This document shows, in pieces, positions 8,001 through 38,505 of a stretch of 39,549 nucleotides of DNA. This stretch comes from Acidobacteriota bacterium (GTDB taxonomy: Bacteria; Acidobacteriota; Terriglobia; Bryobacterales; Bryobacteraceae), in NCBI GenBank assembly GCA_016213775.1, contig JACQZR010000040.1, positions 1-39,549 of the forward strand, in the 5' to 3' direction. The first letter of the stretch is position 1. Each line of letters begins with the position of its first letter. Below the pieces are notes generated by a model, which searched no databases, was not told the DNA's origin, and saw only the letters and a list, made by a program, of their open reading frames with translations. Made by a program: the position numbers and the translations under genes.

Positions 8001-8435
8001 GACGCCGCGCCCTTCACCATCACCCAGCGGCTCGACAATACGGTTCTCTCGGCGCAACGGCCGGACGTGACGAATCCGGCGAAACTCGACGGCCGTGTAG
8101 ACCAGCCGGGCTTCAGTGGGGCGGCATTGCGCTGGCTGATTGCGCCGTCCGACGCCAATTTCCCCTTCCAGAACTCGAGCAATGTGGGCGTCGGCAACCT
8201 CGCCCGCAACACGGGACGGGGGCCGGGCTTCGTGAATTTCAATTTGTCCCTTTTCCGGGACTTCCGGCTGACCGAGCGGATGCGGATGCAGTTCCGGCTG
8301 GAGGCCTTCAACGCGCTCAACACCGTCAACTTCAGCAGGCCGGCGTCGACGGCGACCAACAACGCCAACTACGGACTGATCACGGGGAGCGCCCCGGCGC
8401 GACAGGTTCAGATCGGGGCCAGGATTTCGTTCTGA
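5097..8435 (+). CDS. TonB-dependent receptor, Oar-like, with carboxypeptidase-regulatory-like domain
   Basis: An outer-membrane transporter of 1112 residues. A signal segment (VLALAALTLCLGAPAAAQS) is followed by a carboxypeptidase-regulatory-like beta-sandwich (ASITGIVTDVNGASIPSCEI to about residue 125). A plug domain comes next (IRNLPINGRSPYGLLDL, SVNGGAAFGNSFVVDG, YSAEFGRTSGATVSFQVKSG), then a long beta-barrel ending in an aromatic strand, RQVQIGARISF. I chose ATG 5097 because GGAG lies 6 bases before it; ATG 5085 and the start at 4932 lack such a site. No clear TonB box is visible. The family is very expanded in Acidobacteria and is thought to import oligosaccharides or other large molecules. 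The secreted hydrolase 79 bp downstream suggests a joint role in polymer use; the substrate is unknown. Confidence 0.93.
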   Translation: MPLHETCHRGLKPGSTCPGRQFTVLALAALTLCLGAPAAAQSNVASITGIVTDVNGASIPSCEIVIVNMDTGIAQRTITNDDGVFLASSLAPGPYRAEASREGFKKRQIRNLVLQTGQGLRLDIALDLGDVNQSVDVQASIAPLQRESAELSDTFTSEEIRNLPINGRSPYGLLDLSAGMSSTSEDPSSPNYGSGVSVNGGAAFGNSFVVDGATTTHIGGIGERVGSVEAIGEFKVYTHTYSAEFGRTSGATVSFQVKSGTQKYRGSLYEFHRNNVFNANSWASNARGVATTARVRHEFGATLGGPIAKTKKKMFFFVSFEGNRDVSPIEFIRSIPEPSMRGGDFGSSRVVINDPTAGQPFPGNVIPASRLDPAAARFVQLFPTPNSTGNLNATTGIHTNNWISASSQGRPGYYTIGRLDYYLSNKDKLAFTISRVSEGPWEYGSDFPNALNNRQGVMTRNLHRATFSYTRFVSPGLTNEFVAHGQRDPRVVRPTASGFDAARDLGIERTAGPDMPNIVLPTYGTFGDSDRQIWFHQPAGLNDSVTWQRGRHTLKFGAQLWQNQFWYISSGDVAGTYNFNGEITGLGAAGRSNVINGLADLLLGAVKTASLSVAQIPVNRTNYNLGLFINDTWKATRKLTLNLGLRYEFETPQVVKNNVYSRVDVQTGELLVAGRNASRTLNVGNDFVNFAPRLGVAYALDRKTVIRTGMAIFFSNLWMYNGQMVSYPGWTASQSFVDQGVGRAQPFTFKQGLPLDGVNVVPDPLARYAASSQQSPLSVGALTYGRDANLPRTTQWNFGIQRSLPFRTVLEVSYVGSAGTHVPWNMPANNPGLKDAPAVVIGRVAPQSVRPFPKASAFNAVYYTGSSDYNSLQVKGTRRFHSGFSLMGAYTFSKNLDNVTIGATNSFQIPWELPGLERGLSSLDRPQTLSLGWAWELPFGRKQRFFPANRTLGRALGGFQVNGLFKTGDAAPFTITQRLDNTVLSAQRPDVTNPAKLDGRVDQPGFSGAALRWLIAPSDANFPFQNSSNVGVGNLARNTGRGPGFVNFNLSLFRDFRLTERMRMQFRLEAFNALNTVNFSRPASTATNNANYGLITGSAPARQVQIGARISF

Positions 8436-22669: not shown

Positions 22670-22694
22670 TTAGACTACCGAATCCATATATGAT
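22666..22694 (+). promoter_or_regulatory. Promoter of the IclR-led catabolic operon
   Basis: TTGCTT (22666-22671) and TATGAT (22689-22694, five of six to the consensus -10) are separated by 17 bases. Transcription would start near 22701, leaving only about 7 bases before the ATG at 22709. That agrees with the lack of a Shine-Dalgarno site: a nearly leaderless mRNA. Confidence 0.6.
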
Positions 22695-22708
22695 TGGTCT
22701 ATTCTGAT

Positions 22709-23548
22709 ATGCAGAATGAGTTCCGCACAGCAGAACATCGCGACCCTTACATCGACGTCGTCGGCAGGGTACTCAAGGTCGCCGAGGCCCTCGCCTCGGA
22801 GCCGGATGGCCTCACCCTCAACGAGCTCGCCCGGCGCACGGGCTACGTCAAGAGCTCCGTCCACAGAATTCTGTACAGTCTCAAGCGGCACGGCTACGTC
22901 GAGCAGGACGGCTCACGCGGGGCGTACAAACTCGGAATACAATTCGCGGTGCTCGCAAGGGGCGTCAAGCACAGTCTGCTCGAACTGGCCAGGCCGCTCC
23001 TGCGAGAGCTGCTGGAGAGATTCGACGAGACCGTATACCTTGCTGTTCTACGTGACAACGCGGCCCTCTTTCTGGATGTCCAGGAAACGCGGCGTGACCT
23101 ACGGCTGGTGGGGCCGCTCGACGCCCAGGTTCACTTTCACGCCACCGCCGCCGGCAAGGCAATCGCGGCATTTCTGCCGGCGGAACGCGCGCACTCGCTG
23201 CTCAACGGAGAACCGCTCAAGCAGCTCACCGCGCGCACCAACGTTGACCCGGTCGAAGTGCGCCGTGATTGGGCGAAAGTGATGCGCGCGGGGTATGCCA
23301 CGAACACGGAGGAGACCATCCTTGGGGCCATCTTCCTGGGTGCGCCCGTGTTCGATTCTCGCCGCATGGCCTGTGCCAGCATCAGCATCGGTGTGCCGAA
23401 GGCGCGCTATAGCGCCGAGTTGGGCCGTGAAATGGCCGGGGCATTAATGGAAGCGTGCGGGCGGCTTTCCCAGTCGTTGGGAAGGACAGGCTACACGCAT
23501 GAATCACAACTGGTGGAATCTCAACCCGTACAAGGGAGGTTGCTATGA
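22709..23548 (+). CDS. IclR family transcriptional regulator
   Basis: A 279-residue protein. Residues about 12-80 form the IclR winged helix (VVGRVLKVAEALASEPDG, LTLNELARRTGYVKSSVHRIL, LKRHGYVEQDGSRGAYKLG). Residues 90-265 form the effector domain (ETVYLAVLRDNAALFLDVQE, VHFHATAAGKAIAAFLP, AGYATNTEETILGAIFLGAPVF). Family members bind small organic acids or sugars and often control aromatic or sugar-acid catabolism. A TTG start at 22694 is possible, but the ATG at 22709 fits the promoter just upstream. The stop overlaps the next start as ATGA. A regulator that is the first gene of the operon it probably controls suggests feedback control by the imported substrate. Confidence 0.92.
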   Translation: MQNEFRTAEHRDPYIDVVGRVLKVAEALASEPDGLTLNELARRTGYVKSSVHRILYSLKRHGYVEQDGSRGAYKLGIQFAVLARGVKHSLLELARPLLRELLERFDETVYLAVLRDNAALFLDVQETRRDLRLVGPLDAQVHFHATAAGKAIAAFLPAERAHSLLNGEPLKQLTARTNVDPVEVRRDWAKVMRAGYATNTEETILGAIFLGAPVFDSRRMACASISIGVPKARYSAELGREMAGALMEACGRLSQSLGRTGYTHESQLVESQPVQGRLL

Positions 23549-26500
23549 GGAACGACGCTCTCCGACAAATACCAATCGCCGTATTGGTCCTTTTACTTCT
23601 TGTTGCCGCCATGCAGGCGCAGGTGACAACGCAGAATATTGTAGGTGTGGTAACGGATAACAGCGGCGCGGCGATACCGGGCGCGCAGGTGGTCTGCACC
23701 AATAACGAAACCAATCTGGTGCGTTCCGCGGTTTCCGATGAAGCCGGTAACTACGCGCTCCGATTGCTGCCCACAGGCACCTATCGGGTCGAGATCACAG
23801 CCGGGACATTCAAGAAGTATGTCCAGACCGGCGTGGCGCTGGAGATCAACCGCACGGCGCGAGTCAATGCGGTGCTGGAAATCGGCATGGTAACCGAGTC
23901 GGTGACCGTGTCCTCGGATGCTCCGTTGGTCAACACGGCGGATGCAGCCATCGGCCGCACCGTGGGGAACGCGGAGATTGCCAATCTGCCGCTGGTCAAC
24001 CGCGACGTGTACGCGTTGTTGAGCCTTACTCCGGGTGTGGAGTCGTCTGAAAACGGCAACGCCTTCGGCTTCCCGGAGCAGCGTACGAGCATCAACGGCA
24101 GTTCCTACCAGGGCACGGGCACCGTGAACTACTTCCTCGACGGAGGCAATAACACCACCGGCTTGCGAGGGACAGGGAACATGGCGCCGAATCCGGACGC
24201 GGTGCAGGAGTTCCGCGTTGTCACCAACAGTTACGGGGCCGAGTTCGGACGTTTTGCCGGCGGCGTGGTGGATGTCATTACGCGCTCCGGAAGCAACGCC
24301 CTCCATGGATCGTTGTTCGAGTTTCTTCGCAATGATGCATTGAACGCGAATACCTGGGGTGCGTTGTCGAAGCCGCCGCTGCGAAGAAACCAGTTTGGAG
24401 GGTCGCTGGGCGGACCAATCCGCAAAGATCGAACATTCTTCTTTGCCAGCTACCAGGGCCTGCGGCAACGCGAGCAGCAGTTCCGCAACAGCGCCATCGT
24501 TCCGACTGAGCTCGAGCGGCGCGGCGATTTCTCCGCGTCTCGGATCAAGCCAAACGATCCGCTGACGCGGCAGCCGTTCGCGGGCGGGATCATTCCCGCA
24601 ACGCGCTTCGATCCAACCGCGAAGAACATCCTCGATCAGAACATCCCGCTCGCCAACCTGCCCGGCAGCTTCCATCAGGTGATCCAGGGCCAGCCCAGCA
24701 ATTCCGATGAATTCTCATTGAAAGGCGACCATACCTTGGGGCGCGGCCACCAGTTGACCGGCAGCTATTTTCTGCAAAAGGGCGAGAACATCGAATCGCT
24801 GGCCGGCAACCTCGCCTGGTCACAACGGTTGTTCTCGTGGAGACAGCAGAACTTCAATGCCAGCGACACGTGGGTCATCAATCCCGGAACCATCAACCAG
24901 TTGCGGCTGACCTATGTAAGGAACTTCGGCGGACGTTTGAACATTCCGGAGAAGACGCTTGCCGACTACGGTTCCACGTTCCGCGTGCAAGGCCAGCCTT
25001 CGCTGCCGCAGGTATCGGTGAGCGGCTTCTTCACTCTGGGACAGGGGATTGCCGGTCCCGCGGCGGGCAGCAACTACTATGGCCTGCGAGACATTTTGAA
25101 CATCACTCGTGGAAAGCATTCCATAAAACTGGGCGGCGAGATGTCGCTCGAAAAGTTCGTCCACGACACCACTCTGAACAACTACGGCACGTTTTCATTT
25201 GACGGTTCCATCAGCGGCAGCGGCCTGACGGACTTTGTGCTCGGCCGCCCGCGCACGATGAACCAGGACGTTCCCATCACCAAGATCGACAACGGATGGT
25301 TTTATGGCCTCTTTGTTCAGGATGACTGGCGGATCCACCGGCGGCTCACCTTGAACCTCGGCCTCCGCTATGATCTCCAGCCCCCGTTCACCGATCCTCA
25401 TGACCGCAAGCTGACGTTTGTTCCTGGTCAGCGTTCGCAGATCGTGCCGGCGGCGCCATTGGGACTTCTCTATCCTGGCGATGCCGGGATCGGGCGCGGC
25501 ATCATCCGTGCGGATAAAAACAATTTCGCGCCGCGGCTTGGCTTGGCTTGGGATCCATTCGGTGACGGCAAGACGTCCGTGCGCTCCGCATTCGGTTTGT
25601 TCTACGGTGGCATCTCGGGCAACGAGTGGAACACGACGGCGGACAACCAGCCGTTCACCATCCGCCAGCAGTTCAACACCGTTCGGTCGTTCACTGATGT
25701 CTACGGCGATTTGCCTGGCGGCTCACCGTTCCCTTACAACTACTCGCCGGCGAATCCCCGGTTCATTTCACCGGCTGCGGTCTCGGGGCCGAGCCTCGAT
25801 TTCCGCTGGCCCTACAGCTACCAGATAAATTTCTCCGTGCAGCGGCAGGTGATGAAGGATCTGAGTATCGAGACCGCGTATGTGAGCTCGCTCGCCCACA
25901 AACTGCCGTTCGCACGCGATCTGAACTACCCGGTTTACGGAACAGGAGCAACGGCCGGGAACGTCAACTCGCGCCGGCCGTATCTTCCGGGGACACTGTC
26001 CACCATCAATCAGCTTTCTTCCATCATGAACACCGCGTATCACGGTTTGCAGGTTTCGGTCGACAAACGCATGTCGCGCGGAGTGCAGTTCAAGGGATAC
26101 TACACCTTCAGCAAGAGCCTCGAGGGTGCACGCATGCAGAACGACACCACCAACGGCGGCGCACAGAACATGAACAACCTGTCCGCGGAGCGTGGACGCA
26201 CGGACAACGACCGGCGGCACAACTTTGTCGGCTCCTTGATCTGGCAGCTTCAGTATTTCCAGGCTCCGGTGGTACGGCAGGCGCTCAACGGCTGGACGCT
26301 GTCGAGCATCATCACCCTACGCAGCGGCGCGCCGTTCACGGTCACCAGCGGGCGCGACAACAACCTCGACGGAACCAACAACGACCGCGCGAATCTGGTA
26401 GGCGATCCTTTTCTCGACCCGAACCGCTCGCGATCGCAGGCGGCGAGCGCCTGGTTCAATACGGCTGCATTCGTGGCCAATGCAGTGGGGACCGATGGAA

Positions 26501-26736
26501 CGTCCGGACGCAACATCATCAACGAGCCTGGGCGCAAAGTGGTCGACCTCGGGATCTTCCGCGACTTCCGGGTGAAGGAGGGGCTGAAGGTGCAGTTCCG
26601 CGGCGAATTGACGAACGGGTTCAACCTCGTGAATCTGAGTGCGCCCACAGCGAACTTGAACTCGCAAGCCGTGGGCACGATCCGCAACGCGCGTGCGATG
26701 CGGCAGGTTCAGGTCGGCCTCCGGCTTGTCTTTTAG
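23545..26736 (+). CDS. TonB-dependent receptor, Oar-like, with carboxypeptidase-regulatory-like domain
   Basis: A 1063-residue outer-membrane receptor with a signal peptide (IPIAVLVLLLLVAAMQAQ). The carboxypeptidase-regulatory-like domain runs to about residue 110 (NIVGVVTDNSGAAIPGAQVV). The plug includes IANLPLVNRDVYALLSLTPG, NYFLDGGNNTTGLRGTG and YGAEFGRFAGGVVDVITRSG; the barrel ends in RQVQVGLRLVF. GGGAGG lies just upstream of the ATG, which overlaps the IclR stop by 4 bases. It is the outer-membrane step of the catabolic operon and feeds the MFS transporter 12 bp downstream. Unlike the other two receptors it is coupled to small-molecule catabolic enzymes rather than exported hydrolases, so the ligand is probably small (inference). 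Confidence 0.94.
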   Translation: MRNDALRQIPIAVLVLLLLVAAMQAQVTTQNIVGVVTDNSGAAIPGAQVVCTNNETNLVRSAVSDEAGNYALRLLPTGTYRVEITAGTFKKYVQTGVALEINRTARVNAVLEIGMVTESVTVSSDAPLVNTADAAIGRTVGNAEIANLPLVNRDVYALLSLTPGVESSENGNAFGFPEQRTSINGSSYQGTGTVNYFLDGGNNTTGLRGTGNMAPNPDAVQEFRVVTNSYGAEFGRFAGGVVDVITRSGSNALHGSLFEFLRNDALNANTWGALSKPPLRRNQFGGSLGGPIRKDRTFFFASYQGLRQREQQFRNSAIVPTELERRGDFSASRIKPNDPLTRQPFAGGIIPATRFDPTAKNILDQNIPLANLPGSFHQVIQGQPSNSDEFSLKGDHTLGRGHQLTGSYFLQKGENIESLAGNLAWSQRLFSWRQQNFNASDTWVINPGTINQLRLTYVRNFGGRLNIPEKTLADYGSTFRVQGQPSLPQVSVSGFFTLGQGIAGPAAGSNYYGLRDILNITRGKHSIKLGGEMSLEKFVHDTTLNNYGTFSFDGSISGSGLTDFVLGRPRTMNQDVPITKIDNGWFYGLFVQDDWRIHRRLTLNLGLRYDLQPPFTDPHDRKLTFVPGQRSQIVPAAPLGLLYPGDAGIGRGIIRADKNNFAPRLGLAWDPFGDGKTSVRSAFGLFYGGISGNEWNTTADNQPFTIRQQFNTVRSFTDVYGDLPGGSPFPYNYSPANPRFISPAAVSGPSLDFRWPYSYQINFSVQRQVMKDLSIETAYVSSLAHKLPFARDLNYPVYGTGATAGNVNSRRPYLPGTLSTINQLSSIMNTAYHGLQVSVDKRMSRGVQFKGYYTFSKSLEGARMQNDTTNGGAQNMNNLSAERGRTDNDRRHNFVGSLIWQLQYFQAPVVRQALNGWTLSSIITLRSGAPFTVTSGRDNNLDGTNNDRANLVGDPFLDPNRSRSQAASAWFNTAAFVANAVGTDGTSGRNIINEPGRKVVDLGIFRDFRVKEGLKVQFRGELTNGFNLVNLSAPTANLNSQAVGTIRNARAMRQVQVGLRLVF

Positions 26737-26748
26737 GCGCTAGCCCGA

Positions 26749-28032
26749 ATGACAACTCAGTCCCCGGCGCGGCAGCTACAGACTCGCGGGGGGACGGGCT
26801 GGAAGCCTGTCTCCCCCAACCTGCGCTGGTACATCGGCGTGCTTCTCTTCCTATCGACGGTCATTAACTACATCGACCGCCAAACGCTGAGCGTGCTCGC
26901 GCCGTTCATCAAGCAGGAGTACCAATGGAGCAACTCCGACTTCGCCCTTCTGATCATCTCCTTCCGCGTAGCTTATGCGCTGGGGCAGACGCTCGCGGGG
27001 CGGTTTCTCGACCGCGTCGGAACGCGCGTGGGACTCACCATCACGGTCGCTTTCTATTCCCTGGCAGCCATGTTCACTTCGCTTGCCGTTGGGCTGAAGA
27101 GCTTCTGCGCATTTCGATTCCTGGTGGGGTTCGGTGAATCGGCGAACTGGCCGGGTGCCACCAAGGCCGTATCCGAGTGGTTCCCGAGAAAAGAAAGCGG
27201 ATGGGCGGTGGCCCTCTTTGACAGCGGTTCGTCGATCGGCGCAGCAGTGGCTCCGATGCTCGTCCTGTGGGTTTACCACTGGTCGGGAAGCTGGCGTCCG
27301 GCATTCCTGGCGGCCGGCGCCCTCGGACTGCTATGGCTGCCGGTCTTCTGGCTGATGTACCGCCGGCCGGAAGAGCGCCTGCAAGTTCCTCAAGAGCGTC
27401 CAGGCAGCCTGCCGTACCGCAGCCTGCTTGGGTTGCCCCAGACGTGGGGAATCATCCTCGCAAAGACGCTCACCGATCCGGTGTGGTTCTTCATCACCGA
27501 TTGGTTTGCGATCTACCTGGTCTCGAAAGGCTATCCACTGGAGCAAAGCCTGCTCGCGTTCTGGATTCCTTTCGTTGCCGCCGATGCCGGCAACTTCATT
27601 GGGGGCGGCGTTTCCAGTTATCTCATCAGCCGCGGCTGGAGTGTCGGAACCGCCCGAAAGACTGTCGTGCTGGTCTCCGGCCTCGGGATGGCCGTGCTGA
27701 TGGCGAGCGCATTCCTGAATTCGTTTCACTGGCTCATCGCGTGCTTCGCTGTCTCGACGCTGTCCTACGCGGCTCTGTCCACGATGGTGTTGAACCTCCC
27801 CGCCGACGTGTTTCCGTCGCATTCGGTCGCATCGGTGAGTGGCATGAGCGGAACGGGAGCGGGAATCGGAACCATCGTTGCGACGTACCTCATCGGCAGG
27901 GTGGCGGATGCGCGGTCGTTTGAGCCGGTGCTCATCGTTGCCAGCCTTGTTCCCTTGCTGGCCGTGCTTGCAGTGCTCAGTTTGGTCCGCAACAACGCAG
28001 CGGTTGAGAAAGGAATTGTGAATTCGATATGA
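26749..28032 (+). CDS. MFS transporter, anion:cation symporter type (hexuronate/sugar-acid-like)
   Basis: A 427-residue inner-membrane transporter with about 12 hydrophobic segments. [13 protein letters not shown] (residues 40-52) is the signature of the ACS family, which includes hexuronate, glucarate/galactarate and tartrate permeases. [10 protein letters not shown] (84-93) is the general MFS loop 2-3 motif, and [25 protein letters not shown] is typical of ACS helices 4-5. Transport would be proton symport of an organic or sugar acid. It starts 12 bp after the receptor and overlaps the GNAT gene as ATGA. It supports a sugar-acid-like substrate for the whole operon. Confidence 0.92.
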
Positions 28033-28886
28033 GGCTCTCCACGACGACAGCCTTTCACTTGCGGGAGATGGTCTGCAAGGACATCCCTTGCGGACTGCGT
28101 CTGTGCCGCGCCTGCGGCTGGAACCAGTTGGAGCGGGATTGGCGCTTCTTTCTCGACTCGAGTCCCGGCGGGTGCGGTGTCGCAGTCACGGACGGCGAGG
28201 TCGCAGGGACAGTAGCGACCCTGCGCTACGAGAACCGCTTTGCATGGGTCAGCATGGTGCTGGTGGATCCAGCAGTGCGCGGCCAGGGGATTGGCTCAGG
28301 ACTGCTCGATCACGCGCTGCAAATTCTCGGTGACGTAAGATCAGTGCGGCTCGATGCGACGCCGCAGGGGCGCATGGTCTACCAGAAGCTCGGATTTCAT
28401 GACGAGTATCCGCTCTGCCGTATGCAGGCTGTCAGCCCTTCTGCCGCCGAGCCGCCGGTGAGCATCGCGCGGCCAATCACCGCGGCGGATCTGCACGGGC
28501 TCGCCGGCACGGACTGCGCAGTCTTCGGGGCCAACCGCGGCCGTTTACTCGATTGGTTGCTCGAGGGCGCGCCGGAGTATGGCTGGGTGTTGGAGACGGG
28601 CGATGGCTATATGCTCGGGCGTCATGGGTATTCTTTTGAGCACCTCGGGCCGATCGTCGCAACCAGCGTGGAAGCGGCACAGGCTCTCGTTTCTGCCTGC
28701 CTGCCGGCAGTGGCCGGACGGCCCGTCGTCATAGACGCTCCCATGCATTCCGCACAGTGGAAACACTGGCTGGAATCGCTCGGGTTCGTCGAGCAGCGCC
28801 CTTTTGTTCGCATGTTCCGCGGCGAGAACGCGCATCCAGGGCTTCCTGAAAAACAATTCGCGATCGCCGGTCCGGAGTTCGGATGA
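28029..28886 (+). CDS. Two-part GNAT acetyltransferase with Acetyltransf_18-like C-terminal domain
   Basis: A 285-residue protein. The N-terminal GNAT domain (about 8-140) has motif [20 protein letters not shown], with the acetyl-CoA pyrophosphate loop at residues 84-89, then [14 protein letters not shown]. The C-terminal half (about 150-275) follows the second-domain pattern of such two-part GNATs ([33 protein letters not shown] is the start; [20 protein letters not shown] the end). The acceptor is unknown; in this operon it may acylate an amino intermediate or protect against a toxic one. The start overlaps the MFS stop, and the stop overlaps the serine dehydratase start. Confidence 0.86.
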
Positions 28887-30223
28887 TGACGGCAAGCGTG
28901 TTCGATCTATTCCGAATTGGAATCGGCTCTTCCAGCTCGCACACGGTAGGTCCCATGCGGGCGGCCGCGGTGTTTGTGGAGCGGCTCAACGGGCACCTCG
29001 ACCGCACCGCGCGAGTGCGGATCGACTTGTACGGCTCGCTCGCTCTGACCGGCAAGGGACACGGCACGGACCGCGCTGTGCTCCTCGGGCTCGAGGGCGA
29101 ACGGCCGGAATCGGTTTCGCCTCACCGTCGGACCCTGGCAAGAGTGATTCGGCTGGCGGGGCGCGTTCCGGTCGCCTTCGACGAAGCCGGCGACCTCGTG
29201 TTTCGCTGTCACGAAACGCTGCCCCGCCATCCTAACGGGCTGCGGTTCACGGCATTTGACGATCGAAGCGCAGTACTGAGCGAGGAAGTCTATTACTCAA
29301 TCGGCGGCGGTTTCATCGAAGGTGAGAACGGAGAAGCCGATCCCGAGCTGCGGACGCGCGTGAATCTGCCTTATCCATTTGAGAGCGCGGAAGCGCTGCT
29401 ATCGTCGGCCCGGAGTAACGGAATGCGCATCGCGGAGATCGTGTTCGAGAACGAGCGATGCTGGCGTTCGCCGCAAGAGATCCGCGCCAGAGCGCTGCAC
29501 ATCTGGAACGTCATGGCGGCTTCGATCGAACGCGGTCTGTCTACGGAAGGCGTCTTGCCCGGGAGGTTGGGCGTGCGCCGGCGCGCGCCTTCGCTGCATC
29601 ACGCACTTCGACAGGAATCAACCGATGACTTGCGTCTCATGGATTGGTTGAGCGCATGCGCCATTGCAGTGAACGAAGAGAACGCAGCCGGTGGACGCAT
29701 TGTCACAGCGCCCACCAATGGCGCGGCCGGCATTGTTCCATCGGTGCTCAACTACTATCGGAAGTTCTGCCGCGGAGCGACGGACGACGGCATCGTCACG
29801 TTCTTACTCACGGCCGGTGCGATCGGACTTCTGTACAAGCGCAACGCTTCCATCTCCGGCGCCGAGGTCGGCTGCCAGGGTGAAATCGGCGTTGCCTGTT
29901 CCATGGCCGCGGGCGGGCTCGCCGCTGTGCTCGGCGGCTCCAATGAACAGGTGGAATGCGCGGCCGAGATCGGAATGGAGCACAACCTGGGGCTTACTTG
30001 CGATCCCGTGGGCGGGCTCGTCCAGATTCCCTGCATCGAACGCAACGGGATGGGCGCCGTCAAGGCGGTGAACGCTGCCCGCATGGCGCTCAGAAGCAAT
30101 GGCCGGCACCATGTATCACTCGACCAGGTGATCCGTACCATGCGCGACACTGGCCGCGACATGCAATCGAAGTACAAGGAAACATCTCAAGGAGGTTTAG
30201 CGCTCAATGTCATCGAATGTTAA
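28883..30223 (+). CDS. sdaA: L-serine ammonia-lyase (serine dehydratase), iron-sulfur type, single chain
   Basis: A 446-residue cytosolic enzyme converting L-serine to pyruvate and ammonia with a [4Fe-4S] cluster. The beta-type domain opens with [15 protein letters not shown]; the catalytic alpha domain has [58 protein letters not shown] and [16 protein letters not shown]. Cys331, Cys373 and Cys384 are the usual cluster ligands, and the chain ends in Cys446, the C-terminal cysteine that reaches into the active site in the studied Legionella enzyme. One deviation: the usual GPSSSH is GSSSSH (Ser16 for Pro). It overlaps both neighbours. Its place inside a sugar-acid-type operon is unusual; a beta-hydroxy amino acid released by the pathway could be the real substrate. 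Confidence 0.93.
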
Positions 30224-31502
30224 TCGTCGTCTGTTTCTGCGGACTGCCTCTTCGGCCGCGATGGCCGCGTCCAGTTACGCACAAGTGCGCGGGGCCAACG
30301 ATCGCGTTCGCGTTGCGCTGGTCGGCTTCTCCGATCGTGCCAGGGCCGCGCTTGTACCCGCGTTCGCAAAGGTGTCCCGCGCGCAGAACTTCAGCCTTGT
30401 GGCGCTATCCGATATCTGGTCGGTAAGGCGAAACGAGGGAGCCGGGTTCATCAACCGCCTCACTGATACGCCCGTTGCCAAGGTGCGTAACAATGACGAG
30501 CTCTACGACCGTAAGGACATCGATGCTGTCATCATCGCCACCGCCGACCATCAACATGCGGCGCACGGCGTCGAAGCGGTAAAGACCGGCCGTGATGCAT
30601 ACATCGAGAAGCCGCTCGCGAATCGGATACAGGATGCGCGGGCCATTCTCGAGGCGGTCAGGAGCACAGGGCGTATCGTGCAGATCGGAACCCAGCGGCG
30701 GAGTTCCACCCGCGCCGCCCGCGTCCGCGAGTTTCTGCAATCGGGCGCGTTCGGCGATATCAATATGGTGCAGTTGACGGCCAACTTCAATCAGCCCTCG
30801 CGCTGGCGCCGTCCGGACGTGATTGCCGCCTTGCGGCCGGAAGATACGGATTGGACGCGGTTCCTGGCAGGCCGCTCGACGGATTCCTGGGACCCGCGCA
30901 AGTATGTCGAATTCCGCTTGTTCCGCACCTATTCCTCGGGCATACCGGATCAGTGGATGGTCCACCAGATCGACCTTCTGCACATGCTGACCGGAATGGA
31001 GCGCCCGCGAAGCGTGGTCGCCAGCGGCGGTATCTACCAGTGGGCGGATGGCCGCGAGAATCCGGACACAGTGACGGCGGTCTTCGAATATGCGCAAGCA
31101 GGCGGTAAAGGATTCCAGGCGTTGTTCACCGGCCGCATGGGCAATGCCGCTGGAGGCAGCCGCGATCTGTATTGTTCCAGCGGCGGCACCCTGGAGGTGA
31201 CCACTGGGCAGGTTTCGCCCGACGGCGGGCTCACCGAAAAGGCGGCAGCTACTGCCGGTATGAAGCCGAACCTCTTGGAGAGCCGGTCTCTCGGGGGAAC
31301 CGGAAAGGCCGATGCGGCCGACGACTCGATTGCTGCGCACCTCGAGAACTGGATGCAGTGCGTGCGCTCGCGCCGGCAGCCGATCGCCGATATCACCGCC
31401 GGGTACAACCATTCCGTGGCACTGTGCATGACCGTGGCGGCGATGCGCTCGGGACGGCGCGCAACTTTCGATGACAAGTCACAGCAGGTGGTGTTGGGAT
31501 GA
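30207..31502 (+). CDS. Gfo/Idh/MocA family oxidoreductase with Tat signal
   Basis: A 431-residue NAD(P)-dependent dehydrogenase-like protein. The N-terminus [15 protein letters not shown] matches the Tat motif RRxFLK, pointing to folded export, as is common for this family in Acidobacteria and Planctomycetes. A Rossmann domain follows ([20 protein letters not shown], a loose version of GxGxxG), with [22 protein letters not shown] and the family's EKP at 134-136. The C-terminal domain has the substrate-side helix [15 protein letters not shown]. Reactions in the family are sugar or inositol oxidation, epimerisation or hydrolysis by redox; this one's is unknown. It overlaps sdaA by 17 bp, and the SDR gene starts inside its stop (ATGA). 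Confidence 0.91.
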
Positions 31503-32527
31503 CGAGAAACATGCAAACGGAAAATCAACTCGAAGAGGCCCTCTCCGCGCCGAACGAGGCCGACATTTCCTTCCTGCGGCGCCTTCGCGGCGACGTGATG
31601 CTGCTCGGGGCGGGCGGGAAAATGGGGCCGTCGCTGGCGCGCCGCATTCGCAGGGCTGCCGATGCCGCGGGTGTTCCCACGCGGGTATGCGCCGTATCGC
31701 GGTTCAGCTCGCCGGCCTCTCGACAGGAACTGGAAGCCGCCGGTGTTGAGACAATTTCCTGCGATTTGCTGGATCCCGATCAAGTGAAACTTCTCCCCTG
31801 CTTCGACAATGTCCTGTTTCTCGCCGGCAGAAAGTTCGGATCGGGTGGCCGGCCCGACCTGACCTGGGCGATGAACTCTGTGGTTCCGGCCATCGTGGCG
31901 CGGCGCTTCCGATCGTCTCGCATCGTTGTCTTCTCCACCGGCAATGTGTACCCGTTTGTGTCCACCGCTGGCCGTGGTTCCATCGAATCAGACGATCCGT
32001 CGCCGCGCGGCGAGTACGCGCAGTCCTGTCTCGGGCGCGAACGCGTCTTCGAATTCTATTCCCGCGAGTTCGGTACGCCGTGTCTCATCTATCGGCTGAA
32101 CTACGCTGTCGACCTGCGCTACGGCGTCCTGGTGGATATTGCGCGCAGGGTGGCTGACGGCCAGACGGTGGATGTGTCCGTTCCGGTGTTCAACGTGATC
32201 TGGCAGGGCGATGCCAACTCCTATGCACTGCGCAGCCTCGAGTTGTGTGAATCGCCGCCTCGTTATCTGAACGTGACGGGCCTCGAGACGCTTGGCGTGC
32301 GCGAAACAGCCGGATTTTTCGCGCGGCGCTTCGGCCGCCAGGCGGCATTCGGTGGAGAGGAGGGCGACACCGCGCTGCTCAGCAATGCCGGAGCTTGCCA
32401 TCGGATTCTGGGCGCCCCGGAGGTGCCCGTCGCACAACTCATGGAGTGGGTTGCGGGTTGGATCGAGTCGGGAGGCAGCAGTCTCAATAAACCGACCATG
32501 TTCCAGGTTGCGAGTGGGAGATTCTAA
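31499..32527 (+). CDS. NAD(P)-dependent epimerase/dehydratase (extended SDR-like) with altered active site
   Basis: A 342-residue protein with a Rossmann glycine motif, VMLLGAGGKMGPSLARRI (Gly37, Gly40, Gly43), and strands NVLFLAG and RIVVFSTGNVYPF typical of the extended SDR group. The catalytic Tyr173 stands in GEYAQSCLGRERVFEF, where the usual YxxxK lysine is replaced by Cys177. Gly-Arg follows, so a nearby basic residue may substitute. The C-terminal part (about 195-335) would bind the substrate. It may oxidise or epimerise a sugar acid or its aldehyde. It is joined by ATGA to the Gfo gene and by TAATG to the aldolase gene, so all three are made together. Confidence 0.85.
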   Translation: MTRNMQTENQLEEALSAPNEADISFLRRLRGDVMLLGAGGKMGPSLARRIRRAADAAGVPTRVCAVSRFSSPASRQELEAAGVETISCDLLDPDQVKLLPCFDNVLFLAGRKFGSGGRPDLTWAMNSVVPAIVARRFRSSRIVVFSTGNVYPFVSTAGRGSIESDDPSPRGEYAQSCLGRERVFEFYSREFGTPCLIYRLNYAVDLRYGVLVDIARRVADGQTVDVSVPVFNVIWQGDANSYALRSLELCESPPRYLNVTGLETLGVRETAGFFARRFGRQAAFGGEEGDTALLSNAGACHRILGAPEVPVAQLMEWVAGWIESGGSSLNKPTMFQVASGRF

Positions 32528-33561
32528 TGACTCTTACGGTAACAGAGCTTCGAAAACTGCTTCAGAGCGGCCTGGTGATTCCGGCGCATCCGCTGGCGTT
32601 GACCGCGGAGCGGAAGCTGGATGAACGCCATCAGAGGGCGCTCACCCGCTACTATTGCGATGCCGGCGCCGGCGGCATTGCCGTCGGTGTGCACACGACG
32701 CAATTCGCCATTCGTGATCCGCAACACGGGTTGTTCAAGCCCGTGCTCTCAATGGCCATCGAGGAAGCCGGACGTTTCGAGGCGCGTGCGGAGAGAAGGG
32801 TGCTGAAGATCGCCGGTGTCTGCGGCGATACGAACCAGGCGCTCGAGGAAGCCGCCCTCGCTCGCGGCCTCGGCTATGACGCGGGCCTTCTCAGTCTGGG
32901 CGCGTTGCGTCATGCTTCGGTTCCGGAGTTGATCGGCCACAGCCGCGCAGTCGCCGAAGTCATGCCGATCGTCGGGTTCTACCTTCAGCCGGCGGTCGGC
33001 GGGCGCGCACTCGAGTATGAGTTCTGGCGGAAGTTCGCCGAGATCGACAACGTAGTTGCCATCAAGCTCGCACCGTTCAACCGCTACCAGACCATCGAAG
33101 TGTTGCGTGCGGTGGCCGACAGCGGACGCGCAAAGGAAATTGCGCTCTACACCGGCAACGATGACAACATAGTCGCTGATCTGCTGACGGAGTTCCGGCT
33201 GGCGAATGCCACGTTGCGCTTCGCGGGCGGATTGCTCGGCCACTGGGCGGTGTGGACGCGCCGCGCTGTCGAACTGCTGCAGTGCGTGAAGGCCGGACGT
33301 GGCGGGCTGCTGGCGCGTTCCGCCGAGGTGACCGATTCCAACGCCGCGCTGTTCGACGCGCGGAACGGATTCCGCGGGTGCATCGCGGGCCTCCACGAGA
33401 TCCTGCGGCGCCAGGGCCTGATGGCCGGTCGCTGGTGCCTGGATCCCGATGAAGACGTTTCGCCGGGACAGATCGACGAGATCGATCGCGTGTGTGCGTG
33501 CTTTCCGCATCTCACGGACGATGAATTTGTGGCGGAAAATCTCGAACGCTGGTTGCGCTAG
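32527..33561 (+). CDS. Dihydrodipicolinate synthase/N-acetylneuraminate lyase family aldolase
   Basis: A 344-residue class I aldolase of TIM-barrel type. The Schiff-base lysine is Lys180 in VVAIKLAPF, and the family tyrosine is Tyr152 in IVGFYLQP. The pyruvate-site TT pair appears as HTTQF instead of the common GTTGE, so the carboxylate end of the substrate may differ. Family members cleave or make 2-keto-3-deoxy sugar acids, N-acetylneuraminate or dihydrodipicolinate, usually giving pyruvate. It is about 40 residues longer than typical DapA, with the extra at the C-terminus (DEDVSPGQIDEIDRVCACF). As the last gene of the operon it probably performs the carbon-carbon cleavage step. Confidence 0.88.
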   Translation: MTLTVTELRKLLQSGLVIPAHPLALTAERKLDERHQRALTRYYCDAGAGGIAVGVHTTQFAIRDPQHGLFKPVLSMAIEEAGRFEARAERRVLKIAGVCGDTNQALEEAALARGLGYDAGLLSLGALRHASVPELIGHSRAVAEVMPIVGFYLQPAVGGRALEYEFWRKFAEIDNVVAIKLAPFNRYQTIEVLRAVADSGRAKEIALYTGNDDNIVADLLTEFRLANATLRFAGGLLGHWAVWTRRAVELLQCVKAGRGGLLARSAEVTDSNAALFDARNGFRGCIAGLHEILRRQGLMAGRWCLDPDEDVSPGQIDEIDRVCACFPHLTDDEFVAENLERWLR

Positions 33562-33578: not shown

Positions 33579-35273
33579 CTACTTCCAGCCTGGCGCCTCG
33601 GGCATTGCCGCCCCATCCTTTCGCGGATCTGAGCCGCCCAGGTTCACTCCGCTTTCGAAATTGCGCTCGATCGCCTGTCCGCCGCCAACGGGCTTCGAAT
33701 ACGGCCCCAACAACTCAATCTGGTGGCCCTTGCCCGCCAGTTCTCTTCGCACGCTCTCCGGCACCCTCGATTCGATGCTGACGTCGCACCCTTCGAACGT
33801 GCGCTTCGTCATGCGCGCCGCTTCCAGCGCCTGCTGCACGTTCATCTTGTGGTCCACAACGTTCATCACAAACTGCGCATGCGCCTGACCCTGGTTCCAC
33901 CCGCCCATGATGCCGAAACTGATGCGCCGGGAACCGTTCGACAGGAATCCGGGAATGATGGTGTGCAATGGCCGCCTGCGTGGTCCCGCTGCATTCGGAT
34001 GTCCTGGCTCCAATGTGAACAGGCCGCCGCGATTCTGCAGCACGAAGCCCGTTGCCTCCGCCACCAGCGCGGAACCGAAATCGAGGTAGTTGCTTTGAAT
34101 GAGCGACACCATGTTCCCTTCCCGGTCGGCGACAGAGAGGTAAATCGTATCGCCGCCGGGCCGCCCGGCGAACGTGGTCAGTTCGGAAGGAAGCGCCGCG
34201 CACGCCGCCTCGTTCTCGCGGATGAGTTTCGCCCGCTGTGAGGCGAACGACTTCGAGATCAGCGATTCCACCGGCAGTTGCGTCCCGCGCGGGTCGCCGA
34301 TGTACCGCATGAGATCGGCGTAGGCCAGCTTCTTCGCCTCGATGAGCACATGCAGTGACCGCGCCGTGTTGTGACCGTATTCCCGCATCGGAAAACGCTC
34401 GAGAATATTCAACATTTCCAGAACCGCGATGCCCTGTCCGTTCGGCGGCAGCTCGCTGATGGTCCAGCCGCGATAGCTGGTGGTGATCGGAGTGACCCAC
34501 TCCGGACGATATTCGACAAGGTCGGAGGCATCCATGCTCCCGCCGAGACGCTCCGAAAGTTTCAGGATCGAATCGGCGACGGGGCCGCGATAGAATCCGT
34601 CCCGGCCTCGAGCCGCGATGTGGCGCAGCGACCGCGCCAAATCCGGATTGCGAAAAAGCTGTCCAACTGCCGGAGGCTCGCCATTGGCCAGATAGACGCG
34701 CCTCGTCTCAGCTTGCTCGCGCAGCCTGTTGCGGGACAAGGCCCAGTCCGCGGCGATGATCTCGCTAACCGGAAAACCGTTTTCGGCATAATAGATCGCG
34801 GGTGCGAGCGTCTGTTTGAAACTCAGACGGCCGAATCGCTTCCGCAGCTCATCCCAACCGGCAACTACTCCCGGCACCGTGACGGATTCGATCCCCGACT
34901 CCGGCATCGAGGAAAAACCCTTGGCGCGCAGGCGTTCGATGGTGAGGCCCTTCGGCGACCACCCACTGGCATTCAAACCCGTGACCTTGCCCGTTTTGGC
35001 CTCATAGACGATGGCGAACAGGTCGCCGCCGATGCCCGATCCCATTGGCTCCACGACACCAAGCGTAGCGTTCGCGGCGATAGCGGCGTCGATGGCGTTG
35101 CCGCCGCTCTCCAGAATCTGTACGCCCGCGCGGGCGGCCAGCGGCTGGCTGGCAGCCACAACGCCGAACTTCGAGATCACCATCGAGCGGGCCTGCCACC
35201 GCCCCGTCGGCCAACGGTCCAGATCCTGCGCGGAAAGCAGAGAAGCAGCCATTAGGGCGACAGTCCACCTCAC
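33579..35273 (-). CDS. ggt: Gamma-glutamyltransferase (Ntn hydrolase), exported
   Basis: A 564-residue precursor with a short signal segment ([12 protein letters not shown]). [20 protein letters not shown] and [14 protein letters not shown] are canonical GGT segments. The self-cleavage and nucleophile site is Thr376 in [15 protein letters not shown]; in enterobacterial GGT the corresponding motif is TTHYSV. The small subunit includes [13 protein letters not shown] and [16 protein letters not shown]. It would hydrolyse glutathione or other gamma-glutamyl compounds, or transfer the group, outside the cytoplasm. The start is GTG 35273, overlapping the stop of the Gfo gene as GTGA. It ends only 17 bp from the convergent catabolic operon, with no terminator in between. 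Control is presumably by the GntR gene at the head of the operon. Confidence 0.93.
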
Positions 35274-36244
35274 CGCATCACCTCCTGTAGGGCGACCGCG
35301 GCGCCGTGCCGGCTCTTGCTCACTTCAGCCGCTTCCATGAAGGCGAATACTTCCAGTGTCTCGTCCAGCTTGACCGGCGGCACGCCGCTCTGGAAGAACC
35401 TTACGATCTCGCGCACCAGGTTGACGTAGTTGGATCTCGCTTCACCGGCCGGCGCGCCCGCGGGCGGCGTCGTCAGGTTTCCCTGAGAGCCGAACACCAC
35501 GGCTCCGTAGGACTTCGCTCCTTCGCGGATACCGCGCACCGTCCCGATTCGTCCATCCTTCCATTTGGCGACCAGAAGATCGATGGCGGGCGTATGGGTG
35601 CGCGTGACAGATTCGCATCCGGGCCCCATCAGCGCGTAGAGAGCTTCGATGCTGTGGATTCCATACCAGAACAGATCGGGCAGGTACGGCTCGATCGGAG
35701 CCGGCCCCCAGGTAAACGCTCCGAGGATGGTTCCGGGCTTCGGATTCGCCTTGAGTGCCAGGATCTCACTCGAATAGCGCTGGCTGGAAGCGCTGAACAA
35801 CGGCGTGCCGGACGCGCGCGCCAGCTTCACTATCTCGCGCGCATCCTTGAGACTCCCGGCCATCGGCTTGTCAATGAAGATAGGCTTCTTCGCCTGCAGC
35901 ACCGGCCGTGCCTGCTCCAGGTGCTTGCGCCCATCGACGCTTAATAGAAGCACCGCGTCCACTCTACGGCAGAGCTCGGGAATGGAGTCCACCAGTTCGA
36001 CACCCCACTTCGACGTCACCTCGGCGGTGAACTTCTCGATGCGGTTCACGCTGGCGGCAACGTCCGGGCTGCCCCCCTTAAAAGCGGCGACGACGCGCGC
36101 TCCAGGAACGTGCTCGCTCCGCGAGCTGTCGTTCAGCAACTGCGTGAACTGGACGACGTGAGACGTATCCAACCCTATGATGCCGACGCGAAGGTCGGCG
36201 GCAAAGGTCAGAAACGGGAGAATTGCCAAAGTCAGTAATTTCAT
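35270..36244 (-). CDS. Gfo/Idh/MocA family oxidoreductase, exported
   Basis: A 324-residue protein with a Sec-like signal segment ([18 protein letters not shown]). The Rossmann start is [15 protein letters not shown], with the second and third glycines of GxGxxG changed. DKP at residues 125-127 ([17 protein letters not shown]) takes the place of the family's EKP. ATG 36244 is preferred: GGGGAT precedes it and the signal segment begins there. The altered nucleotide motif and periplasmic location make ordinary NAD use uncertain. It lies 24 bp after the GntR gene and overlaps ggt, forming a three-gene operon. Confidence 0.86.
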
Positions 36245-36267
36245 AGATCCCCTAAACCGCGCGTCCC

Positions 36268-37068
36268 CTACCTTCGGCGGCTCCTCGAAGCAATGTCCGC
36301 GCTTCGGCGGTACCGCGAGCGCCACAATGCCGCGCCAACGGCTTCGCCCAGCACCTCCGGGCCCTGCAATCCGCCGCCACCGGCGCCGTATCTCTCGCTG
36401 ATTGCCGCCAGGATCTCCTGCATTCCACTTCGCACGTGCTTTCGCATGGCTGCGTCCGCCGCATCCGGGTCGTTGCCGGCCAGCAGTTCGATTAATGGCT
36501 GGTGGAACCCAGGCGGAAGCTGGTAGCCCGCCGCCATGTCGTACAACCAGTTAATCGCCAGCACCTGATTCTTCTCAATCAACTCGCACAGCGGTCCACA
36601 CCCGGTACACTCGGCGATCCGCATGTGCAGCGAAAGGTGAAAACTCTGCACCGAGAAGACGAAATCGGGGTCGTCCTCTCCTCCGGTCCAGCGCTCGCTC
36701 ATCTCATCCAGACGGGCCGCCATGCGGCGCATCTCTTCCCGCTCCGCCGAACTGGCCTTCTCGCAAAACAGCCGCGCCGACTGCGTCTCCAGCGCTTCCC
36801 GGATGATGTACCGGTCCCGCAGATCCTGCGGCGTCGGTACACGTACTCGTGTTCCCACGCGAGGCCGGCTCTCCACCAATCCTTCCGCCTCCAGGCGCTG
36901 CATGGCTTCCGAGATGGGGACGAAACTCATTTCCAGCTCAGCGGCCAGGTTGCGGCGTGACAAGGGGGCGCCGAGAGCGAATTCGCCACGCAGAATCTTG
37001 TTGCGAATCAATACGTAAGCTCGGTCGGACAAGCTCCCGGGCGCGGCTGGGCGAGTGGAAAGAGGCAT
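36268..37068 (-). CDS. GntR family regulator, FCD subfamily
   Basis: A 266-residue protein. Residues 10-80 form the winged helix ([60 protein letters not shown]). Residues 85-225 form the all-helical FCD ligand domain ([47 protein letters not shown]), with the histidines typical of its metal site. FCD regulators respond to organic acids and sugar acids. The final 40 residues are Arg/Gly-rich and look unstructured. I used ATG 37068; the in-frame codons upstream add a basic stretch of unlikely relevance. It heads the - strand operon and diverges from a Tat-type Gfo gene, both probable targets. Confidence 0.92.
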
Positions 37069-37085
37069 GTGTTTGGAATTTCTTC

Positions 37086-37115
37086 TTGACAGCCTACCAT
37101 GAATCGAGGTATTTT
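37086..37115 (+). promoter_or_regulatory. Promoter of the divergent Gfo/Idh/MocA gene
   Basis: TTGACA (37086-37091, perfect -35) and TATTTT (37110-37115, four of six) are separated by 18 bases, upstream of the ATG at 37171. Transcription would start inside the palindrome and repeats described next. Confidence 0.6.
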
Positions 37116-37147
37116 GCAATAAATTGCTATTTCAGTATATTTCAGTA
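37116..37147. promoter_or_regulatory. GntR operator candidate: palindrome plus 10-bp direct repeat
   Basis: GCAATAAATTGC (37116-37127) is a palindrome around AA, placed right after the -10 hexamer. It is followed by ATTTCAGTA twice (37129-37137 and 37139-37147), exactly 10 bp apart. The position over the expected start of transcription fits repression by the adjacent GntR protein. Confidence 0.55.
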
Positions 37148-37170: not shown

Positions 37171-38505
37171 ATGATCCCGTTCACCCGAAGAGACTTCGCT
37201 CGTCGCACCGCCCTCGTTTCCGCCCTCAGCTACTCACGCATTTTGGGGGCCAACGATCGTATCCGCGTCGGTCATATAGGCCTTGGCAATCAGGGCGCTA
37301 CGGTGCACAGCCAGTTCCTGGAGTGCAGGAACCAGCAAACAGCAGCGGTGTGCGACTTACAGGATGACTACATGGACCTCGCCGTGCGCAAGGCGGGCAA
37401 CTCCCCGCCGAAATACCAGGATTACCGCAAGCTGCTCGACCAAAAGGACGTCGATGCCGTGGTGATCGCCACGCCCGATCACTGGCACGCCTTGATGTTC
37501 GTCCACGCCTGCCTGGCGGGCAAGGACGTGTACATCGAGAAACCCCTCTCTCTCACCGTGGTCGAGGGCCGCAAGATGGTCGAGACTGCGGAGCGCACCA
37601 GCCGGGTTACACAGTCCGGAATCTACCGCCGCTCGCAGACTTTTCTCAAGGAAGCCGCCGGCTTCGTGCGCTCGGGAGGGATCGGGCACGTGACGGTGGC
37701 CAAGTCGTATCACATCATGAACGACTGGCCGAACGGAATCGGCAGGCCACCGGACAGCGCTCCTCCGGACGCGAAAAAGTGGGATCAATGGGTGGGGCCC
37801 GCGCCCATGCGCCCATACAATCCAAACCGCACCTTCTATAATTTCCGCTGGTTTTACGACTACTCGGGCGGGCAGTTGACCAACTTCGGCGTCCACCATA
37901 TGGACGTGATCCGCTGGTGCCTGGGTCAGGACAGTCCGCGCGCGGTCACCGCGATGGGGGGCCGCTACACTGTGGGCGATAACCGCGAGATCCCGGACAC
38001 CATGGAGGTGTTGTGGCAATTCGACGGCCCCACCATGGTTGTTTTCTCCCAATACAATGCCAACGCCTCTCCCGGAAACATTCAGAACGCCGAGATCGAG
38101 TTGCGCGGGACGAAGGGGACGATGTTCATTCACGGGACCCGCTCGGAAGTCGTTCCTGAGAAGGTGACCGAGATGGTGAAGTTCGCCCGAAGCCCGCTCG
38201 ATCGCCAGACGGAACGGGCCTACGGGCCATCGAAGAAAGCGCTGATCGCGGCGAAGACCGCGCACAGCACGGACGATCGCATTGGCCACTGCCAGAATTT
38301 TCTGGACTGCATCCGGTCGCGCGCCAAGTGCAATGCGGACGTGCTTTCGACCCATCTCTCGACCTCGGCCACCTTGATCGCCAACATCGCCTATCGCACC
38401 AGGAGTTACCTCGAGTGGGACGGCAAGGCGGAGCGGTTCACCAACAATGCCGCCGCGAATCAGTACCTCAGCTACAACTACCGCGAACCTTACCGGTTGC
38501 CTTGA
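37171..38505 (+). CDS. Gfo/Idh/MocA family oxidoreductase with Tat-type signal
   Basis: A 444-residue protein. The N-terminus TRRDFARRTALVSALS resembles a Tat signal. The Rossmann motif is intact (RVGHIGLGNQGATVHS, GLGNQG at 37-42), and VVIATPDHWHALMFVHACLAGKDV precedes EKP at 123-125. The C-terminal domain carries GGQLTNFGVHHMDVIRWCLG with the usual substrate-side histidines. The closing PYRLP after a conserved YREPY end is common in the large acidobacterial/planctomycetal subgroup. The exact sugar substrate is unknown. GGAG lies 8 bases before the ATG. It diverges from the GntR operon and is probably under the same regulator. Confidence 0.92.
   Translation: MIPFTRRDFARRTALVSALSYSRILGANDRIRVGHIGLGNQGATVHSQFLECRNQQTAAVCDLQDDYMDLAVRKAGNSPPKYQDYRKLLDQKDVDAVVIATPDHWHALMFVHACLAGKDVYIEKPLSLTVVEGRKMVETAERTSRVTQSGIYRRSQTFLKEAAGFVRSGGIGHVTVAKSYHIMNDWPNGIGRPPDSAPPDAKKWDQWVGPAPMRPYNPNRTFYNFRWFYDYSGGQLTNFGVHHMDVIRWCLGQDSPRAVTAMGGRYTVGDNREIPDTMEVLWQFDGPTMVVFSQYNANASPGNIQNAEIELRGTKGTMFIHGTRSEVVPEKVTEMVKFARSPLDRQTERAYGPSKKALIAAKTAHSTDDRIGHCQNFLDCIRSRAKCNADVLSTHLSTSATLIANIAYRTRSYLEWDGKAERFTNNAAANQYLSYNYREPYRLP

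Follow-up and report, generated by a model that had tools for sequence, protein, structure and literature searches.

A catabolic operon on an SDR-DapA core in an Acidobacteriota bacterium, with an unexpected and recurrent L-serine dehydratase

The window, by which we mean the whole stretch of DNA analysed here (39,549 bases, 61.6% GC, a single contig of the 11 Mb genome of an Acidobacteriota bacterium), carries an eight-gene operon that ends in an extended short-chain dehydrogenase/reductase (SDR) and a DapA-like aldolase. We found that this operon is of a known general kind, catabolic, with an unexpected and recurrent L-serine dehydratase (SDH) of the iron-sulfur (Fe-S) type. It probably breaks down a sugar-acid-like compound; unrelated bacteria also have the dehydratase next to these two core genes, which suggests a serine-releasing pathway. 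The best explanation, to which we give about even confidence, is a catabolic operon built on the SDR-DapA core, whose dehydratase-bearing versions also yield L-serine from an N-acylated precursor. The recurrent dehydratase, accompanied in one family by an aminoacylase-type gene (M20), narrows the substrate to a possible N-acylated-serine source. Such a clue would help to explain what soil and sediment bacteria use the SDR-DapA module for, a module that is widespread (at least 594 DapA relatives) and has an SDR without the textbook catalytic residue.

The eight genes, all on one strand, occupy positions 22694-33561:

22694 (TTG start) or 22709 (ATG start) to 23548, plus strand: IclR-family regulator (Pfam IclR_C 102.4 bits, HTH_IclR 60.7 bits)
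23545-26736, plus strand: TonB-dependent/Oar-type outer-membrane receptor, a label that we assume (Pfam OMP_b-brl_4 739.8 bits, CarboxypepD_reg)
26749-28032, plus strand: MFS transporter, ACS-like (MFS_1 173.5 bits)
28029-28886, plus strand: GNAT acetyltransferase with two domains (Acetyltransf_1, Acetyltransf_18)
28883-30223, plus strand: Fe-S L-serine dehydratase, single chain (TIGR00720 660.3 bits)
30207-31502, plus strand: Gfo/Idh/MocA oxidoreductase (Pfam GFO_IDH_MocA 51.6 bits)
31499-32527, plus strand: extended SDR without the YxxxK lysine (Pfam Epimerase 29.5 bits)
32527-33561, plus strand: DapA/NAL-superfamily aldolase (Pfam DHDPS 32.4 bits)

Computed from the first possible start codon of each open reading frame, six of the seven junctions overlap by 1-17 bases (IclR/receptor 4, MFS/GNAT 4, GNAT/dehydratase 4, dehydratase/Gfo 17, Gfo/SDR 4, and SDR/DapA 1), and the only gap, of 12 bases, lies between the receptor and the MFS gene. 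A coupled eight-gene operon with a single catabolic function had been proposed in an earlier, sequence-only reading of this DNA; all eight reading frames are present, Pfam and NCBIfam match the named families, and the proposal is supported. The best NCBIfam model for the IclR regulator was BhcR (155 bits, below the cut-off of 350), and the MFS transporter scored 191.9 bits against the D-galactonate transporter subfamily TIGR00893, well below the cut-off of 395. A scan for promoters and terminators in the window was uninformative, with 0 promoter-like sites (2.3 expected by chance) and 9 terminator-like sites (10.0 expected).

The SDR and DapA genes are an old and widespread module. DapA, SDR and dehydratase were searched for in 150 genomes of the window's order, which its named relatives indicate to be probably Bryobacterales, and were present in 106, 109 and 27 of them, respectively. 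Gene maps were made by tblastn for 157 DapA loci, a non-random sample in which both collections contributed an entry for some organisms (L059, for example, equals L106). A same-strand SDR gene lay no more than 1 kb from DapA in 137 of these loci: 19/23 from the order, 13/13 from plasmids, 64/80 from named genomes (the top 80 among the 594 or more relatives found), 40/40 from the Paenibacillus family, and the window. Judged by the record titles of the plasmids and the 80 named loci, the two genes occur together in about fourteen phyla, including Acidobacteriota, Planctomycetota, Verrucomicrobiota, Bacillota, Bacteroidota, Pseudomonadota, Actinomycetota, Chloroflexota, and several candidate phyla. 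In L105, the operon nearest to the window's in synteny, the gene order is MFS (65% identity), GNAT (54%), Gfo (59%), a chondroitinase-B-type gene, SDR (68%) and DapA (71%). Among open-licence papers, no substrate of the SDR-DapA pair was found. Several members of the order, among them the window's genome (L071, L072), have additional SDR and DapA copies on separate contigs. On two haloarchaeal plasmids (L099, L103), the SDR has Gfo and IclR genes no more than 10 kb away, in a stretch shown without an annotated DapA.

The linkage of the dehydratase to this core recurs outside the window's phylum. In a survey of 245 genomes from the family to which G150 (a Paenibacillus) belongs, DapA was present in 98 and SDH_alpha in 200. 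SDH_alpha adjoins at least 41 of the 100 DapA places (in at least 40 of the 98 genomes), always on the same strand and 731-886 bases downstream of DapA, while about 0.25 adjacent places would be expected by chance according to a rough density estimate for SDH; three more genomes (L188, L192, L199) proved to be linked when read individually. SDH was present in 96 of the 98 DapA-positive genomes versus 104 of the 147 DapA-negative ones (p = 5e-9), but the Paenibacillaceae genomes are related, hence this and the other p-values for the family overstate independence, which counts against our explanation. Among the best 80 named loci, six, all from Paenibacillaceae, have both SDH subunits right after DapA, and a seventh from the same family has the first subunit only, at the point where the contig ends. 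In the genome G155, both DapA copies are accompanied by an SDH of their own, so that both of its SDH genes are linked. Of six linked genomes checked, four have no SDH_alpha match other than the linked SDH, which suits a general L-serine enzyme. In Actinomycetota, a soil plasmid of Prescottella (NZ_CP121764) carries a single-chain SDH in divergent orientation to SDR-DapA-MFS, and an M20 gene lies further downstream. The sequence-only reading had claimed that dehydratase and aldolase are functionally tied; this is supported, and the tie recurs in these two further phyla. D-serine dehydratase was considered as a stand-in and rejected, being near DapA in only 2 of 114 loci.

In a tree of 49 SdaAA sequences, the 29 linked ones fell into two distant clades of 24 and 5 members, the latter from the lyase-type operon. 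The clades are separated by long, fully supported branches, and the supported branches force at least two changes, although the program cautions about long branches meeting. In a quick tree built from 157 DapA sequences, the supported branches require the SDH label to change at least seven times. The dehydratase thus joined SDR-DapA several times, most simply twice in Paenibacillaceae, once in Actinomycetota, and once in the window's line. Alternatively, a single joining in Paenibacillaceae may have been followed by replacement in place.

The genes that accompany the dehydratase were counted in 53 Paenibacillaceae loci, a non-random set (20 fetched as linked, 20 as unlinked, and 13 others), 30 of which have SDH. 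M20 was present in 18 of the 30 loci with SDH and in none of the 23 without it (p = 1.4e-6), GfoB, a second Gfo-type gene, in 13/30 versus 2/23 (p = 0.006), and the regulator-like Reg5 in 22/30 versus 8/23. The M20 protein passes the amidohydrolase subfamily model TIGR01891 at 380.5 bits (cut-off 153.75; the Prescottella M20 scores 276), while the next-best models, CpsA and the N-acetyl-diaminobutanoate deacetylase DoeB2, remained below cut-off. Homologues of GNAT stand near DapA in 18 of 114 loci, one of which is the window, so that GNAT accompanies the system in several phyla; none of the 157 loci has both GNAT and an M20 hydrolase. Reg5 (L129, 7500-8831, and 11 other loci) has a weak GdpP-like GGDEF match and accompanies SDR-DapA in Bacillota and, at 24% identity, on the Prescottella plasmid. 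In L064, some 1.4 kb away from DapA and on the opposite strand, a gene at 6370-8328 encodes a 653-residue PALP protein, dependent on pyridoxal phosphate (PLP), which may be a stand-in of the serine/threonine-dehydratase kind.

By its sequence, the window dehydratase (28883-30223) is a canonical L-serine enzyme. Its score to TIGR00720 is far above the cut-off of 345.1, and it aligns over its length with the Fe-S L-serine dehydratase 4rqo (515 bits), with Cys331, Cys373, Cys384 and the C-terminal Cys446 aligned; we take the former three to be the cluster cysteines and the latter to be the C-terminal cysteine of this family. It keeps 160 of the 172 positions that are invariant in 19 relatives from the window's order (12 changed), is the sole SDH_alpha match in its genome, and differs from the known enzymes in its genomic partners only. 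In the single-chain Prescottella enzyme, 16 of the 172 invariant columns are changed, and Cys339, a non-cluster cysteine, is replaced by Ser. The Paenibacillaceae SdaAA has 104 columns that are invariant in 20 unlinked rows, 22 of which are changed in at least one linked row; SdaAB has 57 such columns, 24 of which are changed in linked rows. An altered specificity of the linked dehydratases was considered and set aside; inspection by eye showed no cluster cysteine among the changed SdaAA and SdaAB columns.

The DapA model (mean predicted local distance difference test, pLDDT, 93.2) found its best Foldseek matches among N-acetylneuraminate lyases (17-22% identity, E 4.7e-15), and the protein failed the 4-hydroxy-tetrahydrodipicolinate synthase model TIGR00674 (21.4 bits versus a cut-off of 206.15). 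Lys180, presumably the Schiff-base lysine, is invariant in both alignments (A1 and A4); Tyr152, which we take to be the catalytic tyrosine, is present in the window and in 26/26 rows of A4, and is replaced by Ala or Ser in 2/13 rows of A1, both from actinobacteria (L101, L102). Judged from the model, the combination of a TIM barrel with this lysine and tyrosine places the window DapA in the class I aldolase superfamily. It thus resembles the N-acetylneuraminate lyase/DHDPS superfamily in fold, Schiff-base lysine and, in most rows, tyrosine, but differs in its low identity and in the motif GVHTTQF, where other members presumably have GxxGE. The 2-keto-3-deoxy-acid type that the sequence-only reading had assigned to the aldolase agrees with family and context.

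The SDR (model pLDDT 93.2) keeps Tyr173 in all 140 sequences compared, that is, the window protein (31499-32527) and 139 homologues, but four residues further on 139 of them have C, A, V, T or G, and the YxxxK motif of classical extended SDRs is absent from the window protein. Its nearest solved fold and best profile match is TerB, the SDR of the terfestatin pathway (6d2v/6nd7), which has YPVGK where the window's SDR family has YAQSC. The SDR probably binds NAD(P), while its chemistry is unsure. Arg180-Glu181-Arg182 is nearly invariant among the 140 sequences, which form a catalytically odd family spanning phyla.

We found four types of operons around the aldolase: Reg5-SDR-DapA-sdaAB-sdaAA-M20-GfoB; SDR-DapA-sdaAB-sdaAA followed by a heparinase II/III-type gene and an ABC transporter; the same heparinase-type gene and transporter without SDH; and lactonase-IlvD-SDR-DapA. 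The last type, with a lactonase-like gene of the Amidohydro_2 kind, occurs in L143, L186, L193, L195 and L196 of the Paenibacillus family, and resembles an oxidative route for a sugar with this aldolase as its last enzyme. An IlvD-type gene is near DapA in 6 of 157 loci (in L093, about 8 kb away on the opposite strand); its protein scores 799.6 bits to L-arabinonate dehydratase (cut-off 882) and 854.7 bits to NF004784 (cut-off 539). A mandelate-racemase-like gene, named from the L095 annotation and without an NCBIfam match, is near DapA in four loci. Lyase-type genes are near DapA in 11 loci, of the heparinase II/III type in 10 Paenibacillaceae and of the chondroitinase-B type in L105. The heparinase-like protein scores 128.7 bits to the heparin-sulfate lyase HepC, far below the cut-off of 700, and the L105 gene (7299-8456; PF14592, 302 bits) is interrupted by a run of N. 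No polysaccharide lyase was found by Pfam among the eight operon genes of the window.

From operon structure, families, conserved residues, recurrence and the association of M20 with the dehydratase, we infer a scheme in which the substrate, the order of the steps and every activity are interpretation. The TonB-type receptor and the MFS carrier would import the substrate under control of IclR. DapA, as a Schiff-base aldolase, would split a 2-keto-3-deoxy acid into pyruvate and an aldehyde, an activity assigned because of its superfamily and the IlvD, mandelate-racemase-like and lyase genes nearby. Its feed would differ by cluster, coming from an IlvD-type sugar-acid dehydratase, a mandelate-racemase-like protein, or a polysaccharide lyase. 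The pathway of the dehydratase-bearing clusters would yield L-serine from an N-acylated precursor, with an amide hydrolase freeing the serine (M20 in Bacillota and Prescottella, possibly a convergent gamma-glutamyltransferase, GGT, in the window) and the dehydratase converting it into pyruvate and ammonia. The serine could arise in two ways: by the splitting of a serine conjugate, or from N-acetylserinal that the aldolase leaves and that becomes N-acetylserine. Both explain M20 adjoining SDH, and sequence cannot separate them.

The split conjugate, in which a sugar acid or uronate amide-linked to L-serine is divided by M20 or GGT and the halves are degraded separately, is a possibility we hold only tentatively and as a minority view. 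It had been raised as an alternative in the sequence-only reading, and of that reading's claims it gains most, because the aminoacylase-type gene goes with the dehydratase in Paenibacillaceae and M20 is of the amidohydrolase/carboxypeptidase kind; the uronate-lyase-type genes near the SDR-DapA pair fit it as well. The gain does not set it apart from the aldolase origin, which we consider unlikely as formulated here: an N-acetylhexosaminuronate opened by a lyase would give a 5-acetamido-2-keto-3-deoxy acid, DapA would cleave this into pyruvate and N-acetylserinal, and the latter would be oxidised to N-acetyl-L-serine, deacetylated, and deaminated. This sequence gives a role to the SDR, DapA, SDH, M20 and lyase of the Bacillota clusters, and the best fold matches of DapA cleave a 5-acetamido-2-keto acid. 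Moreover, in a gluco- or galacto-configured amino sugar with C1 reduced and C3 oxidised, C2 would give L-serine as worked out on paper, which favours the aldolase origin over the sequence-only reading's route. However, the fold matches are distant and of a family that fills the library, lyase and M20 sit in different loci, and no intermediate, polymer or activity is known; nothing on the cluster or the proposed intermediates was found among open-licence papers, which leaves room for reports elsewhere in print. A likewise unlikely proposition is that this route burns an amino sugar through serine and not through glucosamine-6-phosphate: the SDR and the DapA-like aldolase would cut an N-acetylhexosaminuronate to pyruvate and an N-acetylated, serine-sized fragment, and aminoacylase and L-serine dehydratase would turn the fragment into a second pyruvate and ammonia.

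Gluco- and galacto-configured 2-amino sugar acids that keep C1 as the acid are D-configured. This bears on the route favoured in the sequence-only reading, in which a 2-amino-3-hydroxy sugar acid (deacetylated by M20 in Bacillota) is first turned by the dehydratase into the 2-keto-3-deoxy acid that DapA then cleaves. The joint occurrence of M20 and SDH in Paenibacillaceae fits such a route, as does the IlvD-type or mandelate-racemase-annotated gene beside the pair in other clusters. In addition, the ong route for GlcNAc1A (oxidised chitin) proceeds through a deacetylase, a deaminase and KDG (PMC9537276). Nevertheless, the enzymes here belong to L-type families, the SDH is canonical in score, in its four key cysteines and in its invariant positions and is often the only one of its genome, and M20 passes a general amidohydrolase model. 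As described in PMC9537276 and PMC12017989, the ong deacetylase OngB is a D-aminoacylase-like TIM barrel and the deaminase OngC is among the PLP-dependent enzymes, followed by the kinase KdgK. We therefore regard the action on a 2-amino sugar acid as quite improbable and as the least likely of the fitting explanations, and the serine alternative is the best supported.

The remaining rival is that a housekeeping serine deaminase landed in the operon and serves general serine turnover, which we find possible but doubtful. It agrees with the dehydratase being the only SDH_alpha match of the window's genome, with the lack of a linked dehydratase in the other DapA-positive genomes sampled from the order, and with its absence from the L105 operon. 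Several observations weigh against the release of serine by the pathway. The dehydratase is near DapA in only 1 of the 106 DapA-positive genomes of the window's order, namely the window's own; of the 20 genomes with both genes, no other has them within 20 kb on one contig, although many contigs of the order are short and could hide neighbours. No co-occurrence of SDH and DapA beyond chance was found in the order (20/106 versus 7/44, p = 0.8), the dehydratase was not found in seven other genomes of the window's genus, and the syntenic operon L105 lacks it, with no SDH_alpha match in its assembly. Nor was a linked dehydratase found in 68 named loci of other families. Outside Paenibacillaceae there are only two linked cases, Prescottella and the window, each weak alone, with chances of at least one such case of about 0.15 in Actinomycetota and 0.04 in the window's line. 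As for M20, it is absent from 12 of the 30 SDH loci (one of them, L182, on a contig ending there) and from the neighbourhood of the window operon, where its replacement by GGT is a guess. Five loci from other phyla (L134, L151, L171, L172, L178) have M20 genes, partly of another subfamily, near SDR-DapA but no SDH, so that M20 is not tied to SDH everywhere. Against the bystander stand the same linkage at no fewer than 41 of 100 DapA places in the Paenibacillus family and on the Prescottella plasmid, for which we dropped it as the leading view, the two linked SDH genes of G155, the association of SDH with M20, and the start/stop overlaps of the dehydratase on both sides in the window. The sequence-only reading had held that a strictly serine-specific dehydratase that is absent from orthologous operons would be a bystander; within its own order the orthologous pairs do lack it, but it is present in other phyla.

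The release of serine on an SDR-DapA core can also be compared with known pathways. With the ong pathway it would share N-deacetylation, loss of ammonia and a 2-keto-3-deoxy acid, but it has at most an M20 hydrolase, an L-serine enzyme of the Fe-S type, and an aldolase that is DapA-like. No Pfam match of an OngB-type D-aminoacylase or an OngC-type PLP deaminase was found among the eight operon genes and the neighbouring GGT, second Gfo and GntR genes. The DEHU/KDG route for unsaturated uronates (PMC8563752) likewise has an NAD-dependent reductase/dehydrogenase and 2-keto-3-deoxy acids. Its lyase-made uronate may have a counterpart in L105, with its chondroitinase-B-type gene, and in the 10 Paenibacillaceae loci with a lyase-type gene, while the eight operon genes of the window include no such lyase by Pfam. 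The differences are that the window SDR lacks the YxxxK lysine and that serine dehydratase and aminoacylase are extra.

Beyond the operon, three genes of a convergent unit follow:

33579-35273, minus strand: GGT, a possible associate (TIGR00066 392.6 bits, cut-off 357.85; G_glu_transpept 500.9 bits)
35270-36325, minus strand: second Gfo (GfoB), a probable associate by homology to GfoB of the Paenibacillaceae clusters
36268-37119, minus strand: GntR/FCD regulator of the convergent unit, a possible associate (Pfam GntR 60.3 bits, FCD 47.7 bits)

The window's GfoB is 47, 42, 41 and 32% identical to the copies in L162, L170, L129 and L096, respectively, and in L162 GfoB, GNAT, SDR and DapA adjoin one another. 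Because of this identity and this grouping, the gene system of the window may extend past 33561, to about 37119. A further Gfo/Idh/MocA gene lies directly past the GntR regulator, at 37171-38505 on the plus strand.

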